From Cyanobacteria bacterium HKST-UBA02 (GTDB lineage: Bacteria > Cyanobacteriota > Vampirovibrionia > Obscuribacterales > Obscuribacteraceae): a stretch of DNA of 5,184 nucleotides. Shown here piece by piece: positions 1 through 5,184 of this stretch. Each line of letters begins with the position of its first letter. The first letter of the stretch is position 1. The stretch is taken from contig JAGQHH010000425.1 in assembly GCA_020431945.1 (NCBI GenBank), positions 1 through 5,184 of the forward strand, written 5' to 3'. The notes under the pieces were generated by a model. The model saw only the letters and a program-made list of their open reading frames with translations, was not told the origin of the DNA and did not search any database. The position numbers and the translations under genes are program-made.

Positions 1-1361
1 TGGCGCTAATGAGTTTGCAACTCAGGGGAGGCGAGCTAATAGAGCTTGCCGATGGCTTCGTCGAGAGACAGGTCGTCATCCAAAACCGGGAGATAAAAAG
101 GCAGAAAGACCTCAGGGCTTCGCTCAATACGATAGTCTTTTCTGGTATTGGATTCAATATCATAATCGCCTTGGTTCTTGCTGTCGCTTTCAATCGCAAT
201 ACGATTCAGAGGCTCAATATCCTGAGAGTGAACGCCGACCTTCTTGCCCGAGATGAGGCTCTATTGCCGAAAGTGGAGGGAGATGACGAGATTGCAATCA
301 TCGACGGACGTTTTCACGAAATGGCAGATAGCGTCAGAAGGGCCACTAAAAGGGAGAAGGCAATTCTGACTAATACTAGCGATGTGATTTTCTCGCTCAA
401 CGCCAGCCTCGAGTTTACTTTCGTCTCGCCGGCCTCGAGCAGAATATGGGGGTATCACGAGGATGAGTTGATCGGCCGGGAGATTGATTGCGTGATTTCG
501 GATGGCGACACTGAAAGAGTTAGAAAACAGCTTCTCGAGCTGGAACTCTCGCACGATAGAGGCACGATTGAATGCACTCTTGTCACTCGCGAGACGGAAG
601 AGACCGAGGGACTGCTCTCCGTCTTCTGGTCAGATACCGAAAATCAGCTCTTTTGTGTCTCTCATGATATCACCGAGCGCAAGCAGCTCGAGAGGCTCAG
701 ACAAGAGATTGTCTCGATGGTGACTCACGACTTGAAGAGCCCGTTGAGCTCGTTGAGTCTTATCTTTTCCTTCCTTCTCGAAGAGGAGAAGATATCGAAG
801 AACGCGAGCAAGCTCTGCTCAAGGGGTAAAGACTCTGTCGAGCATATGGTGAGACTTATCAATGATCTACTTGATGCAGAGCGCCTCGAGCAGGGGATAC
901 TAATGCTCGAGATCAATGAGTTTCGCGTGCGAGATGCAATCTCCAGGGCGGTCGACTCGGTTAAGGCGATTGCAGACAAGAGGCGAATCAATATAAAGGT
1001 GCTTGGGCCTAATGTAACAGTAAGAGCAGATCTAGAGCGAATTGTGCAGGTCCTGATTAATATCCTTAACAATGCTATTAAATTCTCCGAGGCGGACTCT
1101 CTGGTGAAGGTGATTGCAAGCGAAAGCGATGGAAGCTTATGCATAGAGGTGATCGATAACGGAATCGGAATTCCCAGTCAACATATAGATTCGATTTTCG
1201 ATAAGTTCCGGCAGGTCCGGGCCTCGGATAGCACGAAACGCGGCGGTAGCGGCCTCGGTCTGGCAATCTCGCGCTGGCTCGTAGAACAACATGGTGGGAG
1301 AATTGGGGTTGAGAGCCAGGAGGGCAAAGGCAGCCGCTTCTGGTTCACGATACCACTCTGA
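1..1361 (+). CDS. Membrane sensor histidine kinase (TM-HAMP-PAS-HisKA-HATPase_c), 5' partial
   Basis: This is the C-terminal part of a two-component sensor kinase that autophosphorylates on histidine and passes the phosphate to a response regulator. Numbering from the first visible Met (ATG at 9), residues about 43-61 form a hydrophobic membrane segment. A HAMP-like linker follows (about 61-115), then a PAS domain (about 116-222, ending SHDITERK). The HisKA dimerisation helix has its H-box [11 protein letters not shown], with His240 as probable phosphoacceptor. The ATPase domain shows the N-box ILNNAIKFS (352-360), G1 DNGIGI (383-388), the F-box near F397-F400 and G2 GGSGLGL (412-418), so all catalytic motifs are intact. 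The frame stays open to the left edge and ATG 9 has no Shine-Dalgarno sequence before it. The true start, a first membrane helix and an extracytoplasmic sensor domain therefore probably lie upstream. No response regulator is present in the window. No terminator is visible after the stop, and a promoter-like element begins 1 base beyond it. The architecture is compatible with PhoR-type kinases, but the signal is unknown. Confidence 0.95.
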
Positions 1362-1362
1362 A

Positions 1363-1396
1363 TTGTCAATAAAACGTCAACTTGAATTGTTAGTTT
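1363..1396 (+). promoter_or_regulatory. Pho-box-like direct repeat plus -10 element, upstream of the Pro-rich protein gene
   Basis: The element starts 1 base after the kinase stop codon. TTGTCAAT (GTCAAT at 1365-1370) is followed by GTCAAC at 1376-1381, so the repeat period is 11 bases. Taking the 18-base box as 1363-1380, a -10-like TAGTTT lies at 1391-1396 after exactly 10 bases. That is the spacing known for PhoB-activated promoters, where the box replaces the -35 element. The predicted transcript would start near 1403, and the Shine-Dalgarno GAGAGGA is at 1417-1423. About 12 of 18 positions match the E. coli Pho box by hand. The -10 match is weak alone; support comes from the same arrangement at two other genes here. 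Confidence 0.5.
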
Positions 1397-1431
1397 CTCA
1401 ATGACACTGGCTCACAGAGAGGAACTACGCG

Positions 1432-2034
1432 ATGTTTGAAGGACAAAGACCTAACGCCGAGGTGAGTGAAGGCGCGAGTCAAGCAGCACAGGTGATAGAA
1501 GTCAAATTCGAAGGCTCGGACGGACTTTTCCGGGAGTTGAGGCACAAGCCTTCTCCAGCGGCCCAGGAGTTGATACCATCCGTCTCGTTGGTTGATGAAA
1601 TGGCGAATATAATCGGTGAGGCAAGCAGCGGATCCGACGCAGGTCGAAAATATGTGGACACCCCTGGTGGCCGGAAGTACCGGACAGTAGGTAGACCCTT
1701 ACAAGAGCAAGATCAGACAGGGGACCTCGTCCGACCCGGCAAACCGCCGATCAATCGAGCCGATCAATGTCCGCCAGAGCAGAATCTTCCGAATACGGGA
1801 CTGATCAAGCCTCGCTGGGGAATAGACGAAGTGCCCGTGCCCTATCGGCCAGATAACAAACCGGAAAAGCCGCAACCACCTCAGAACAAAGAGAAACCAG
1901 GCAAGCTGGAAAGTCCTGATCGAGTAACAAGACCGCACCATCCGAGACCGCTCCTTCCTCTCGAACCCTCTAAACCGGATACTCACAAGATACTGAAAAA
2001 GACTCCAGAAGGTGTTCTAGCGGCAGAATCGTGA
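1432..2034 (+). CDS. Hypothetical soluble protein with Pro-rich C-terminal half
   Basis: I do not recognise the family. The product is 200 residues with no signal peptide and no membrane segment, so it is predicted cytoplasmic unless exported by an unusual route. The N-terminal 100 residues are mixed and could fold. They contain a short repeated motif, GRKY, at 71-74 and 80-83. Residues 101-192 hold 23 prolines (about one in four) plus many Lys, Arg and Asn, for example PDNKPEKPQPPQNKEKPGK, and are almost certainly disordered. The start is supported by GAGAGGA at 1417-1423, 8 bases before the ATG. The gene is followed by 156 non-coding bases containing an inverted repeat, then a same-strand gene with a LysM-like domain. 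A Pho-box-like promoter precedes it. Pro/Lys-rich tails of this kind can act as linkers or partner-binding segments, but nothing here shows which. The start, frame and compositional continuity make a real gene likely. Confidence 0.75.
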   Translation: MFEGQRPNAEVSEGASQAAQVIEVKFEGSDGLFRELRHKPSPAAQELIPSVSLVDEMANIIGEASSGSDAGRKYVDTPGGRKYRTVGRPLQEQDQTGDLVRPGKPPINRADQCPPEQNLPNTGLIKPRWGIDEVPVPYRPDNKPEKPQPPQNKEKPGKLESPDRVTRPHHPRPLLPLEPSKPDTHKILKKTPEGVLAAES

Positions 2035-2041
2035 TATCCCC

Positions 2042-2116
2042 CCAGCGCCGCTGGACCAGGCGAGACATCAGTGGAATCGCACTCTAACCATTTTGAGTTG
2101 AAGTATTCCACTGATG
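2042..2116. repeat. 12-bp perfect inverted repeat (2066-2077 / 2105-2116) with a small GC-rich hairpin before it
   Basis: CATCAGTGGAAT at 2066-2077 is exactly complementary in reverse to ATTCCACTGATG at 2105-2116, with 27 bases between. Inside the loop, ACTC and GAGT can add a 4-bp inner stem. Just upstream, CCAGC gcc GCTGG (2042-2054) forms a compact 5-bp hairpin. Neither structure is followed by a T run, so a classical intrinsic terminator is not supported. An mRNA structure that protects or attenuates the transcript between the two genes, or a binding site for a dimeric regulator, fits better. It occupies about half of the 156-base gap at 2035-2190. The rest of that gap holds only a weak GGCAC/GTGCC dyad (2133-2137 / 2146-2150) and the ribosome binding site of the next gene. 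Confidence 0.7.
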
Positions 2117-2190
2117 CTCAACTGGAGTTCTTGGCACTATATGAGGTGCCTTGTGGGGCAACGAGATGAAGTTTCTTCGAGGAGTTAATA

Positions 2191-3234
2191 ATGGAACCTA
2201 CAGGAACGGAAATCTACAATAGCATCCAGAATTTTGGCGACCTTGCACTGGCCGCTGAAGTCTATGGAGGCGTAGGTCTGACATCGATCGAGGACTACTA
2301 CAGAGACTTGAATCCCGGCAACAGTCAGGCAATCCGTGATGCCGTGATGCTGGAGCTTCAGGAGAGAGGAATTCTAGCTGCGTTTGAGATCGATGAGAAT
2401 GGATTGAACGTTAAGGAAGGGGGGTTGAGTTCGGAGGAGAAGCGGGCAGCAGGATTGATCAATCTCTTAGAGCAGATGACCGGCGACAACTCCACATTCG
2501 TGACAGAGCTAGCCAGACTCACCGATGCCGGCGGCGAGGCGGACTCGGATGCCGGTCAGGTCGCCCTGGGGGATCTCGAAGAGGCTCTCAGGATTGAAGA
2601 AGCGAATCCCGGTACCTACACTGCCGGGCAGGTAATGGCGATTCATGAGTTGCAATCGAGAATGCGAGCCCAGATCGAATTGGATGCCATGTCGGCCACG
2701 ATGTTTGGCGGCATTGTATCGTTGTTTTCTGATGGAGGTGAGAGTGGTGTTCCTAATAATGATGGCTTCGCGGACGGACTCGATGTCGGACCGAACGATA
2801 TTGCTCAACTGGCGGAAATGAACGGTATAGTCCGCCACGATAGTGTGGAGCTCGACCAGCGACTATTGCTTAGAGAGGCAGACGATACCGCACAATCCGA
2901 TCCAGTAGAGGCTCCGAATGCGGAGGAGCAGCGTATGTCAAACGGTCAGATTGAGTTTGATCTCGAGCCCACAGCCCAAATTGGAGATTATCCTATGGTC
3001 GAGCCGGAAGCGACTTACACGGTTAAGGGAGGCGACGGTTTCGACCGAATAGCCAGGGCCGTATACGAGGAAGCGTACGGTGAGCGCCCTAGCGCCGCCT
3101 TCGAGATCGAGCTCTCGAAAGCGATAGCAGAGTTGAACGGGAACGACAGAGACTACTCGGGCGGCTACATACATCCTGGGGACTCCCTTGCTGTACTGAC
3201 AAAGGCGCAGATTGATGCTCTCCTGGAAGAATAG
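2191..3234 (+). CDS. Acidic protein with C-terminal LysM-like domain, no signal peptide
   Basis: The product is 347 residues, strongly acidic, with no hydrophobic signal or membrane segment. Residues 275-347 form a LysM-like domain. It has the entry strand YTVKGGDGF, a helix with DRIARAVYEEAYG, a second helix IELSKAIAELN, and a closing IHPGDSLAVLT strand. LysM normally binds N-acetylglucosamine chains of peptidoglycan or chitin. Between the two helices this copy has roughly 10-15 residues more than a standard 44-50 residue LysM. Residues 1-270 match no family I recognise. They are mostly helical in appearance, with Asp/Gly-rich stretches (LTDAGGEADSDAG; VPNNDGFADGLDVG) that recall degenerate EF-hand loops but lack the full DxDxDG pattern. 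GAGGAG at 2179-2184, 6 bases before the ATG, fixes the start. No Pho-box-like repeat precedes the gene, so it may be cotranscribed with the gene at 1432 or use its own promoter. A second gene with the same LysM variant follows after 111 bases. Confidence 0.85.
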   Translation: MEPTGTEIYNSIQNFGDLALAAEVYGGVGLTSIEDYYRDLNPGNSQAIRDAVMLELQERGILAAFEIDENGLNVKEGGLSSEEKRAAGLINLLEQMTGDNSTFVTELARLTDAGGEADSDAGQVALGDLEEALRIEEANPGTYTAGQVMAIHELQSRMRAQIELDAMSATMFGGIVSLFSDGGESGVPNNDGFADGLDVGPNDIAQLAEMNGIVRHDSVELDQRLLLREADDTAQSDPVEAPNAEEQRMSNGQIEFDLEPTAQIGDYPMVEPEATYTVKGGDGFDRIARAVYEEAYGERPSAAFEIELSKAIAELNGNDRDYSGGYIHPGDSLAVLTKAQIDALLEE

Positions 3235-3266
3235 ACATTCTCTCTTTACCGAAGGAATGCCTCAAT

Positions 3267-3300
3267 TTGTCAACAATCTGTCAACTCTGATCACTATTGT
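3267..3300 (+). promoter_or_regulatory. Pho-box-like direct repeat plus -10 element, upstream of the small LysM-like gene
   Basis: This is the best of the three matching elements. GTCAAC at 3269-3274 and GTCAAC at 3280-3285 are perfect copies with an 11-base period. The 18-base box TTGTCAACAATCTGTCAA (3267-3284) agrees with the E. coli PhoB consensus, as I recall it, at about 14 of 18 positions. After exactly 10 bases comes TATTGT (3295-3300), matching TATAAT at 4 of 6. A transcript would begin near 3307, followed by the Shine-Dalgarno GGAGGA at 3331-3336 and the ATG at 3346. A short TTGTC/GACAA dyad (3297-3301 / 3310-3314) overlaps the expected start and may be chance. Confidence 0.6.
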
Positions 3301-3345
3301 CTCTCTATCGACAAACGGGTCGTAGCTTTCGGAGGATTTACTACA

Positions 3346-3828
3346 ATGACACTCAACTCATTAGAACAGAACACTGAACGTTTTCAATCACCCACAATCC
3401 AGCTCGGACAAGCGCTGTTAGGGTCGGTAGATTTCGAAACTTTTTCCAGCCTGTCCAAAACCAATAACTTTTCGGAGGCGGAGCTGCCAGAGCTGAACCT
3501 CGTCGATCCAAGACAGTCTGCTCGCGCCAAAGAAAGAGTAGGCGGGGTTCCATATGTAGTCAAGCCAGGTGAAACTCTCACGGATGTAGCCAGGTCTGTC
3601 TTCGAAAGTTATTTTGCTACCGAGCCCACGTCAGATATCTTGAAACCTCTATCTACATTGATTGACAAGATGAATCATCTCAATCATCCAATCTTACCTC
3701 TAGAAGCGGATCAAACCCTGCGCGTTCCTACTGCTGATGAGGTCGAAGACGCTTTCAACTCATGCTTTATACGCCATGAAGCACAAGAGTGGTTTCAAGA
3801 TATGCTCAACACGGAGAGCATGGAGTAG
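3346..3828 (+). CDS. Small LysM-like domain protein, no signal peptide
   Basis: The product is 160 residues without a signal peptide or membrane segment. Residues 69-130 form a LysM-like domain: PYVVKPGETLTDVARSVFES, then a spacer, LSTLIDKMN, and LPLEADQTLRVPT. It aligns by eye with the C-terminal domain of the 347-residue protein just upstream. Shared positions include Y.VK.G, the AR.V.E helix, the Asn ending helix two, and L.V.T at the end. Both have the same lengthened region between the helices. The N-terminal 65 residues (Ser/Thr/Asn-rich) and the last 30 residues (one Cys, otherwise polar and acidic) are unfamiliar. The start is supported by GGAGGA, 9 bases before the ATG. The gene has its own Pho-box-like promoter, so it can be expressed independently of the upstream gene. 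Two hairpins follow it. LysM domains usually bind peptidoglycan glycans, but without an export signal the location is open. Confidence 0.85.
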   Translation: MTLNSLEQNTERFQSPTIQLGQALLGSVDFETFSSLSKTNNFSEAELPELNLVDPRQSARAKERVGGVPYVVKPGETLTDVARSVFESYFATEPTSDILKPLSTLIDKMNHLNHPILPLEADQTLRVPTADEVEDAFNSCFIRHEAQEWFQDMLNTESME

Positions 3829-3880
3829 AGCAATTAGTTACGAACCTGAATGAACCCCCAGGTAAATTTCTCGAAGCGAG

Positions 3881-3928
3881 ACATTGGAGGGCTTAGATAC
3901 CGCAAGTGGTATTGAAGCCCTCCGGTGT
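3881..3928. terminator. Long two-part hairpin after the rightward genes, probable terminator
   Basis: GGAGGGCTT at 3886-3894 pairs perfectly with AAGCCCTCC at 3915-3923. The stem can be extended outward to 3881 and 3928 through two G-U pairs. The loop contains a second stem, ATACCG CAAG TGGTAT (3897-3912), separated by a 2x2 internal loop. Downstream on the + strand is TTAATTAAT, a poor U tract, so termination may be partial, or the structure may protect the 3' end of the mRNA. It starts 53 bases after the stop of the small LysM-like gene, and a tiny TCTCG aag CGAGA hairpin (3869-3881) abuts it. Confidence 0.6.
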
Positions 3929-3954
3929 TAATTAATGATCCAGTTGATTATTAA

Positions 3955-3993
3955 AGAGGGAAAAGGCTGTCGGGCGCTGACAGCCTTTCCTCT
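3955..3993 (-). terminator. Rho-independent terminator, best read for the leftward gene
   Basis: AAAGGCTGTC (3962-3971) pairs over 10 bp with GACAGCCTTT (3979-3988) around a 7-base loop. AGAGG/CCTCT extends the stem outside a small bulge. Read leftward, the stem runs into TTTTCCCTCTTTAAT, a reasonable U-rich tail, and it lies 20-50 bases past the stop of the leftward 161-residue gene. Read rightward, the tail CCTTTCCTCTGATC also has some T residues. It may therefore act in both directions between the two converging transcription units. Confidence 0.75.
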
Positions 3994-4012
3994 GATCATC
4001 CAAACGTAGCGG

Positions 4013-4498
4013 CTATTTCGGTCCTCTTCCGACAGCCCTCACGGTATCGCCTAGTTGTTGTCCGTCCCTGTCCATGAGCCTGATGAAATAAGCTCCCGGA
4101 GGAATCCTCTTTCCGTCGATCTGAACTTCAATGCTCCGACCCGTACCAGCCAGACCTGCGTTTATGCGATTTTGGAGGTTCTCAACTTCCAGACCTCCAA
4201 CGGCAGATGCACGACTAAACAGCTCGGCGAGATCTTCGGAAACCCTGGAATTGCGGTCAAGCTTACCTTCTCTCAAACCGAAGATTATCTTGACCAGCCC
4301 TGTCTTCGATTCGATATTGTCATTGTGTGTTATCTCCAGATGCGGTATTTCTACCTGGTCACGTCGGACCGGCAGGCGGCATCCGGGCCAGATGTAAGCT
4401 TCGCTGACCGTGGACTTTTCTTGCCCTGACTCCGGGTTCTCACCCGTATTTAAATTGATGTCTTTATCGATAGCCTTTTCGGCGAAATGGTCGAACAT
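4013..4498 (-). CDS. Hypothetical protein, 161 residues, unknown family
   Basis: I do not recognise this protein. It has no signal peptide or membrane segment. Residues 1-33 are polar and look disordered (NLNTGENPESGQEKS). Residues 34-80 look like a beta-rich segment, with WPGCRLPVRRDQVEIPHLEITHND then LVKIIFGLREGKL. Residues 85-115 look helical (SEDLAELFSRASAVGG...ENLQNRINAGL). Residues 120-157 appear beta-rich again: SIEVQIDGKRIPPGAYFIRLMDRDGQQLGDTVRAV. It shares no visible LysM domain with the rightward genes. The start is set by AGGAG (4510-4506 read leftward), 7 bases before the ATG. Upstream lies a Pho-box-like promoter of the same design as two rightward genes, which suggests coregulation. 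A strong hairpin terminator lies just past its stop. The 4055-4429 open frame on the other strand is its shadow. Confidence 0.8.
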   Translation of the reverse strand: MFDHFAEKAIDKDINLNTGENPESGQEKSTVSEAYIWPGCRLPVRRDQVEIPHLEITHNDNIESKTGLVKIIFGLREGKLDRNSRVSEDLAELFSRASAVGGLEVENLQNRINAGLAGTGRSIEVQIDGKRIPPGAYFIRLMDRDGQQLGDTVRAVGRGPK

Positions 4499-4532
4499 CT
4501 TGCCTCTCCTTTTCTTAGTGGTGCATCAACGG

Positions 4533-4692
4533 CTAACTGCCTGGCTGAATGCTACTAAAGCAAGTTGACAGCATGATGACTTTATTCGGAAAAGGCGCTA
4601 GATCGGCGCGCTCAATAATACCGTCTGCGGTGGTGTAGGAGGTGCTCCAAGGAAATTCTGGGTTGTCCTGCCCAAAATCGCAAGCTTCAATG
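4533..4692 (-). pseudogene. Possible frameshifted C-terminal tail of the upstream leftward gene
   Basis: Past the TGA at 4689-4687, another minus-strand frame reads GIEACDFGQDNPEFPWSTSY and continues for about 50 residues to TAG at 4535-4533. It includes an ADGIIERADLAPFPNKVIML segment that looks like real protein. Removing one base from a run of five G (4697-4693, minus strand) joins the upstream frame smoothly as ...ERSWRG-IEACDFG. The original frame after the stop reads like noise. Either the gene is frameshifted, by mutation or sequencing error, or the resemblance is chance. The last part overlaps the Pho-box-like repeat. It would end 34 bases before the next gene's ATG. Confidence 0.4.
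4549..4582 (-). promoter_or_regulatory. Pho-box-like direct repeat plus -10 element, leftward, upstream of the 161-residue gene
   Basis: On the minus strand, GTCATC (4580-4575) is followed by GTCAAC (4569-4564), again with an 11-base period. The 18-base box spans 4582-4565. After exactly 10 bases comes TAGCAT (4554-4549), matching TATAAT at 4 of 6. GTCAACTTG is identical to nine bases of the site before the 1432 gene. About 12 of 18 positions match the E. coli Pho box by hand. A transcript would start near 4542, with the Shine-Dalgarno AGGAG at 4510-4506 and the ATG at 4498. The site overlaps a protein-like reading frame described separately, so it could be coincidental. Confidence 0.5.
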
Positions 4693-5184
4693 CCCCCGCC
4701 AGCTCCGCTCCGCCTCTTCAACCAGACGGCGGTTGGCCGGCGTATTCTCCACCAGGCGCCCGTTCAGACCCCGGATCATCTTCGGCTCGCCGGTGACGGT
4801 CTTGCCGAAACACCGATCGATGGACTCCTGATCGAATCGCTTGATCTTCCCGTAGAGATCCGGTGACAATCTGGCGAGTTCCTTTCTGTCTTTACCATCG
4901 GCGCTCTCTCCCACACCGATTCGGAAAAAGCTCAGTCCTTCGGACTGGTGCTCGTAAGGATATGGGAAATAGTCCGTGGCGGGCTTGACCAGGGCACGCT
5001 CTTGCATGTCTTTCGACTCGAGAAGTCTCTTGCCGTCCTCCGGACGCTTACCAGCGGTCCATCGCCACTTCTCGTCTTTTGTCTGACGCCAGAGCCCGCC
5101 TTCGTTGTCCTTGAGAAGAAAAGCGCCGTGCTTCTTGCTCCAGGTCCAGCCCAGATCCCTGGCTTCGGCCCGCGATGCCCTGGT
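4687..5184 (-). CDS. Hypothetical protein, 5' partial, Trp/Lys-rich
   Basis: The frame is open from the right edge of the window to TGA at 4689-4687, giving 165 visible residues. The Met at 5007 is internal: the 59 codons before it are in frame, uninterrupted and protein-like (RDLGWTWSKKHGAFLLKDNE; GGLWRQTKDEKWRW). It is unlikely to be the start. I do not recognise the family. The first 45 residues have many Trp and Lys with repeated W-x-W spacing. The middle (KPATDYFPYPYEHQSEGLSF) is Tyr/Pro-rich. The rest is charged and mostly helical in appearance (SPDLYGKIKRFDQESIDRCFG; NTPANRRLVEEAERSW). No membrane segment is visible in this part. The gene lies upstream of, and on the same strand as, the 161-residue gene, with no hairpin terminator between them, so some read-through is plausible. 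The end may be displaced by a one-base frameshift. Confidence 0.8.
   Translation of the reverse strand, partial: TRASRAEARDLGWTWSKKHGAFLLKDNEGGLWRQTKDEKWRWTAGKRPEDGKRLLESKDMQERALVKPATDYFPYPYEHQSEGLSFFRIGVGESADGKDRKELARLSPDLYGKIKRFDQESIDRCFGKTVTGEPKMIRGLNGRLVENTPANRRLVEEAERSWRGH

Follow-up and report, generated by a model that had tools for sequence, protein, structure and literature searches.

Three upstream regions with a shared Pho-box-like layout point to a candidate OmpR/PhoB-type regulon in DNA resembling that of Obscuribacterales

A shared promoter layout upstream of three genes

The window analysed here, i.e., the whole 5184-base stretch of contig JAGQHH010000425.1 (51.6% G+C), carries three mismatch-free copies of one composite element, GTCA-N7-GTCA-N11-TANNNT, upstream of three genes designated A, C and E (Table 1). 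Each copy, named after the gene that follows it, combines a direct repeat resembling the Pho box of Escherichia coli with a −10-like hexamer. From this layout, we consider it likely that sites A, C and E are promoters activated by an OmpR/PhoB-family regulator, most likely one of PhoB type, and that they belong to one regulon. They offer a testable cis-regulatory code for genes that lack a known family. The Obscuribacterales, to which the host appears to be close, are non-photosynthetic relatives of cyanobacteria, and one of their species owes its name to phosphate accumulation. We know of no regulatory genetics for this group, and in the open-licence literature no paper was found on a Pho box in Melainabacteria or on a Pho regulon in Obscuribacter.

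All three sites lie in non-coding DNA, which makes up 13.7% of the window when six frames are taken as genes, and all are oriented in the sense of the downstream gene. Four gene starts have upstream DNA within the window (A, B, C and E), and the design is present at three of them; the region before gene B (2035–2190) holds no match even when up to three mismatches of 11 are allowed. An earlier note on this DNA had placed the repeat units at 1365 and 1376 (+), 3269 and 3280 (+), and 4580 and 4569 (−). These six coordinates are correct, and so are the 11-base period and the hexamers that it read at the three sites. The ATG, which it expected about 50–65 bases past the repeat, lies 50 (A), 60 (C) and 65 bases (E) beyond the repeat end. 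On the other hand, the gap of 10 bases that it gave between GTCAAC and TANNNT was a miscount, the distance being 9 bases at all three sites, or 11 from the end of GTCA. The starts of genes A and C are backed by relatives that begin at the identical residue, whereas that of gene E has no such backing.

Table 1. Genes and promoter-like elements in the window.
Feature	Position	Strand	Basis or remark
Sensor histidine kinase, 5′-truncated by window edge	3..1361	+	PAS, HisKA, HATPase_c domains
Site A direct repeat TGTCAAT-AAAA-CGTCAAC, period 11, Pho-box-like	1364..1381	+	exact pattern match; PhoB matrix 10.03 bits, rank 3
Site A −10-like hexamer TAGTTT	1391..1396	+	9 bases past repeat
Gene A, 200 residues, proline-rich (by eye)	1432..2034	+	open reading frame; without known domain
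Gene B, 347 residues	2191..3234	+	open reading frame
Site C direct repeat TGTCAAC-AATC-TGTCAAC, period 11, Pho-box-like	3268..3285	+	exact pattern match; PhoB matrix 14.99 bits, rank 1
Site C −10-like hexamer TATTGT	3295..3300	+	9 bases past repeat
Gene C, 160 residues, single LysM domain (residues 70–128)	3346..3828	+	open reading frame; Pfam LysM
Gene E, 161 residues, without known domain	4013..4498	−	open reading frame
Site E −10-like hexamer TAGCAT	4549..4554	−	9 bases past repeat
Site E direct repeat AGTCATC-ATGC-TGTCAAC, period 11, Pho-box-like	4564..4581	−	exact pattern match; PhoB matrix 14.04 bits, rank 2
3′ end of further minus-strand frame	4687..5184	−	open reading frame

With the gap set to 9 bases and up to two mismatches allowed, the pattern matched the window three times, each time without mismatch, whereas 200 shuffles gave 0.02 matches on average. 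Since this pattern had been composed after the sites were seen, its core, period and distance were left free in a look-elsewhere control. Here, any four-base core, any period of 5–20 bases and any distance of 5–20 bases to TANNNT were allowed against dinucleotide-preserving shuffles, irrespective of the position of a site relative to genes. The best combination in the window occurred in three copies, a number reached in 0 of 300 and in 2 of 4000 shuffles. The repeat GTCA-N7-GTCA by itself occurs three times, namely at sites A, C and E, and that many occurrences were found in one of 4000 shuffles. The three sites form a real recurring pattern, chance being made unlikely by the free-parameter shuffles.

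Comparison with the E. coli Pho box

To score both strands of the window, an 18-column matrix was built from all 59 PhoB sites determined by chromatin immunoprecipitation sequencing in E. coli (PMC10294691, Table 1). This matrix, which was not fitted to the window, placed sites C, E and A at the top; the fourth place, on the opposite strand of site C, reached 7.39 bits. The median of the 59 E. coli sites is 15.3 bits, and sites C and E are ordinary on that scale. One match at the level of site C was found in 17 of 1000 shuffles, and two at the level of site E in 2. In 150 kilobases of other E. coli DNA, the levels of sites C, E and A were reached at 2, 6 and 50 places, respectively; this comparison DNA does contain real sites, as the PhoB-bound regions at rhsE and yfcJ listed in the same table lie within it (PMC10294691).

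The full design was then compared with E. coli K-12 DNA in two sets: six stretches around phoA/phoB, pst, ugp, phn, phoH and psiE (105,006 bases), and three further stretches (150,000 bases). In the first set, the phoA promoter was the sole exact match, and a single mismatch was found at just two places, pstS and phoH. The boxes of phoB and ugpB were among 26 places with two mismatches. All five of these boxes are reported to be bound by PhoB (PMC10294691). The second set contained no exact match.

The PhoB-activated Pho promoters of E. coli (phoA, pstS and phoH) share with the window sites both the GTCA core and the 11-base direct repeat. Their box is described as lying 10 base pairs upstream of TAN3T/A (PMC1906773). 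At phoA, the second GTCA is separated from the TA of the −10 element by 11 bases, the distance counted at all three window sites. The suggestion in the earlier note that the three genes use a single promoter design is supported by this phoA geometry together with recognition by the PhoB matrix. The likeness is not complete: most of the E. coli table sites have T or C after GTCA, whereas five of the six window units have A. The window also differs in having one weak site, no phosphate family downstream, and a host far from proteobacteria.

Several results weigh against assigning the sites to a PhoB-type regulator. Site A is weak: only 3 of the 59 E. coli sites score at or below its level, and three matches that high were present in 33 of the 1000 shuffles, so that spacing and position are its main support. 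The phnC and psiE promoters gave no place with up to two mismatches in the K-12 stretches that cover both. Furthermore, all three places with one mismatch in the second K-12 set (just before yfcF, inside yncG and inside accD) are away from known Pho promoters; a near match by itself is therefore no specific sign. When viral contigs were scanned with a stricter box pattern, 18 stretches came up, 9 of which are followed by a same-strand open reading frame of at least 50 residues with its first start codon within 150 bases, a count that omits frames whose first start codon precedes the box. By eye, these nine frames have no common function. In addition, none of the products of genes A, C and E matches a phosphate-related family in Pfam or NCBIfam. 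Finally, plain consensus comparison does not single out PhoB: the match of the E. coli Pho, SphR, WalR and CpxR consensuses to that of the six window units is in each case equalled by 10–12% of random 11-mers (about 12% for WalR and about 11% for CpxR).

Proposed mechanism

The arrangement suggests a mechanism in which an OmpR/PhoB-family response regulator, once phosphorylated, would bind two head-to-tail TGTCAAC-type half-sites 11 bases apart. The box would cover the place of the −35 element, with a constant spacing to a weak −10 element. At phoA, the PhoB sites overlap the −35 (PMC3348028), and structural models support strict spacing (PMC10294691). Since the box takes up the −35 place at this constant spacing, the bound dimer would recruit a sigma70-type polymerase in place of the −35 contact. 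Given the shared PhoB-like layout, a single regulator probably controls genes A, C and E, which would then be switched on together.

An ordinary sigma70 promoter was considered for these regions and rejected. At spacers of 16–18 bases, the best agreement with TTGACA is three of six letters at site A, one of six at site C and two of six at site E, which leaves no good −35 element, and a general sigma70 scan reported no promoter-like site upstream of the three genes.

Alternative explanations

A chance resemblance among the upstream regions would be helped by the −10-like part, which fixes just three bases, by the definition of the pattern after the fact, and by the shuffles that hold three PhoB-matrix matches at the level of site A. 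However, three copies were hardly ever reached in the look-elsewhere shuffles, and all three sites stand upstream of a gene in sense orientation and take the first three ranks with a matrix made from the bound sites of another organism. We therefore regard chance as a scarcely credible explanation. The repeats might also serve as operators, bound by a repressor or by some other DNA-binding protein, with the promoters located elsewhere. A direct repeat alone leaves activator and repressor undecided, but the constant spacing of 9 bases between repeat and TANNNT in each of the three sites, the absence of a good −35 and the negative sigma70 scan in these same upstream regions make such operators improbable.

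Another possibility is that the sites belong to the SphR system of photosynthetic cyanobacteria, whose TTAACC-type Pho box is given as CTTAACCT with at least three repeats (PMC1906773). In its favour, the host looks like a member of Obscuribacterales, which the NCBI taxonomy places within the Cyanobacteriota/Melainabacteria group. SphR boxes likewise lie upstream of genes and repeat every 11 bases, and the consensus of the six window units fits the E. coli Pho and SphR consensuses equally well (0.62 each). The window sites differ from them in having two repeats and a GTCA core. Scores were obtained with a repeated 8-column unit matrix built from 30 rows of Table 1 of PMC1906773, mostly predicted sites; the PhoB and SphR scores are not comparable because the two matrices differ in build, and ranks were used instead. 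With two units, the three sites ranked 30th, 92nd and 60th of 10,332, and with three units 50th, 202nd and 31st of 10,310. An SphR identity is thus disfavoured by the matrix ranks, though not by the plain consensus, and we consider it very improbable. The same data bear on the view in the earlier note that the core is nearer to the proteobacterial Pho box: the matrix ranks and the unit-by-unit identity (0.65 for E. coli Pho versus 0.52 for SphR) agree with it, while the consensus comparison ends in a tie.

The strongest competitor concerns the identity of the regulator. WalR (TGTWAH) and CpxR (GTAAA) belong to the same family and also bind direct repeats with an 11-base period. The promoter mechanism would then be as proposed above for a PhoB-type protein, but the regulator and its signal, related to envelope or other stress, would not be those of phosphate, and the adjacent kinase might be the partner. 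The six half-sites match the WalR and CpxR consensuses at 0.78 and 0.77, respectively, compared with 0.65 for the E. coli Pho unit, values that do not establish a ranking as the motifs differ in length. As the units also agree with the consensuses of WalR and CpxR, the member of the OmpR/PhoB family that binds is not singled out. The LysM domain of gene C, typical of wall-binding proteins, favours this alternative, as does the kinase, which scores about equally on WalK, PnpS and PhoR and below all three cut-offs. Against it, the core is GTCA, as opposed to GTWA or GTAAA, in every one of the six units, a trait shared with the strongest Pho boxes of E. coli, and the −10 spacing is that of phoA. 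Moreover, the adjacency of kinase and site is no proof of a link, and no response regulator gene was found among the open reading frames of the window or with Pfam. A WalR/CpxR-like regulator is a real but less favoured option; it overlaps with the preferred assignment to the OmpR/PhoB family, and our estimates for the two are not exclusive.

The downstream genes and the phosphate question

For the preferred OmpR/PhoB-type promoters, we judge phosphate as the activating signal to be a possibility that falls slightly short of an even chance. Polyphosphate genes are reported in Candidatus Obscuribacter phosphatis, which makes a role of phosphate plausible, and the main text of that report mentions neither PhoB nor PhoR (PMC4040986). 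Confirmed boxes have been described at genes without obvious phosphate regulation (PMC4415409). The kinase provides no evidence for phosphate, because none of the best 25 of 78 NCBIfam families reaches its cut-off; the best scores were 201 bits for WalK, 197 for PnpS and 189 for PhoR, versus cut-offs of 725, 400 and 334.

Only tentatively do we suggest that the Pho box of Obscuribacterales is of the proteobacterial GTCA type rather than TTAACC as in their photosynthetic relatives, and that their phosphate regulon recruited lineage-restricted protein clusters, including a LysM protein. If phosphate is the signal, the half-site code would differ between photosynthetic cyanobacteria and their non-photosynthetic relatives, and the sites would reveal phosphate-response control in a lineage with polyphosphate genes (PMC4040986).

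The description of the controlled genes as uncharacterised in the earlier note proved apt. Genes A and E have no match in Pfam, PHROGs or NCBIfam, and gene C matches LysM (Pfam, E-value 6.7e-7, 29.6 bits versus a cut-off of 20.9). In a search of 5.8 billion proteins, which reaches only relatives sharing short words, gene A had one close relative besides itself (P0004, 89% identical, with equal length and start), and so had gene C (P0002, 86% identical, with equal start). For P0002, P0004 and P0005 alike, the longest listed contig measures 23,346 bases, and the three probably share one contig. A scan of a genome collection gave a single locus; it lies in a metagenome-assembled genome labelled uncultured Bacteroidetes, aligns with residues 31–84 of gene C at 41%, and was dismissed by eye as a LysM-domain match and not an orthologue. 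Genes B, C and E gave nothing in the viral-contig scans, and gene C has no match in annotated phages. The predicted structures are poor, with a mean predicted local distance difference test score of 44.6 for gene E and 43.7 for gene C.

Gene B, which lacks the promoter design, has a LysM-like end that stays below the cut-off (18.3 versus 20.9 bits). Inspection by eye shows a stretch similar to the final part of a LysM unit in genes B and C and possibly also in E, at 3166–3198 (+), 3688–3729 (+) and 4367–4396 (−), respectively, with YIHPGDSLAV in B and YIWPGCRLPV in E as examples. These three genes may be diverged members of one family.

The histidine kinase and minor features of the window

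The closest relatives of the kinase have 585–595 residues, the copy in the window being truncated. Among its best 120 of 5871 relatives, the named ones are mostly from Obscuribacterales/Melainabacteria, with a few others such as Trichormus and Drouetiella, and the first one named Obscuribacterales stands at 37% identity. Judging by these relatives, the host looks like a member of, or a lineage near, Obscuribacterales/Melainabacteria. Against plasmids, all matches listed are below 60% identity, the best being a cyanobacterial plasmid at 35.8%, and a scan of viral contigs with a kinase alignment returned two distant kinases with 31% and 30% identity.

Three bases separate the end of the kinase stop codon (region 1359–1365) from the first GTCA of site A. 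Because of this closeness, the kinase transcript may also include gene A. It is possible, as a guess, that this kinase is the partner of the regulator.

In two of the viral contigs scanned for the strict box (L026, 499–531; L040, 3498–3530), the box precedes a 163-codon frame, with 29 bases between it and the first start codon; by eye, this frame resembles a late sigma factor of the T4 type.

Between the convergent genes C and E (3881–3993), two inverted repeats are present, one of which reads as a minus-strand intrinsic terminator after gene E (3990–3960). Terminator-like sites number four in the whole window, with no excess over the shuffle mean of 4.5. The region before gene B (2035–2190) has no match in Rfam at an E-value of 0.1 or better. 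It contains a perfect 12-base inverted repeat (2066–2077/2105–2116) and folds more stably than its shuffles (z = −3.26, with 2 of 200 as stable), and gene B may be controlled through a leader RNA.

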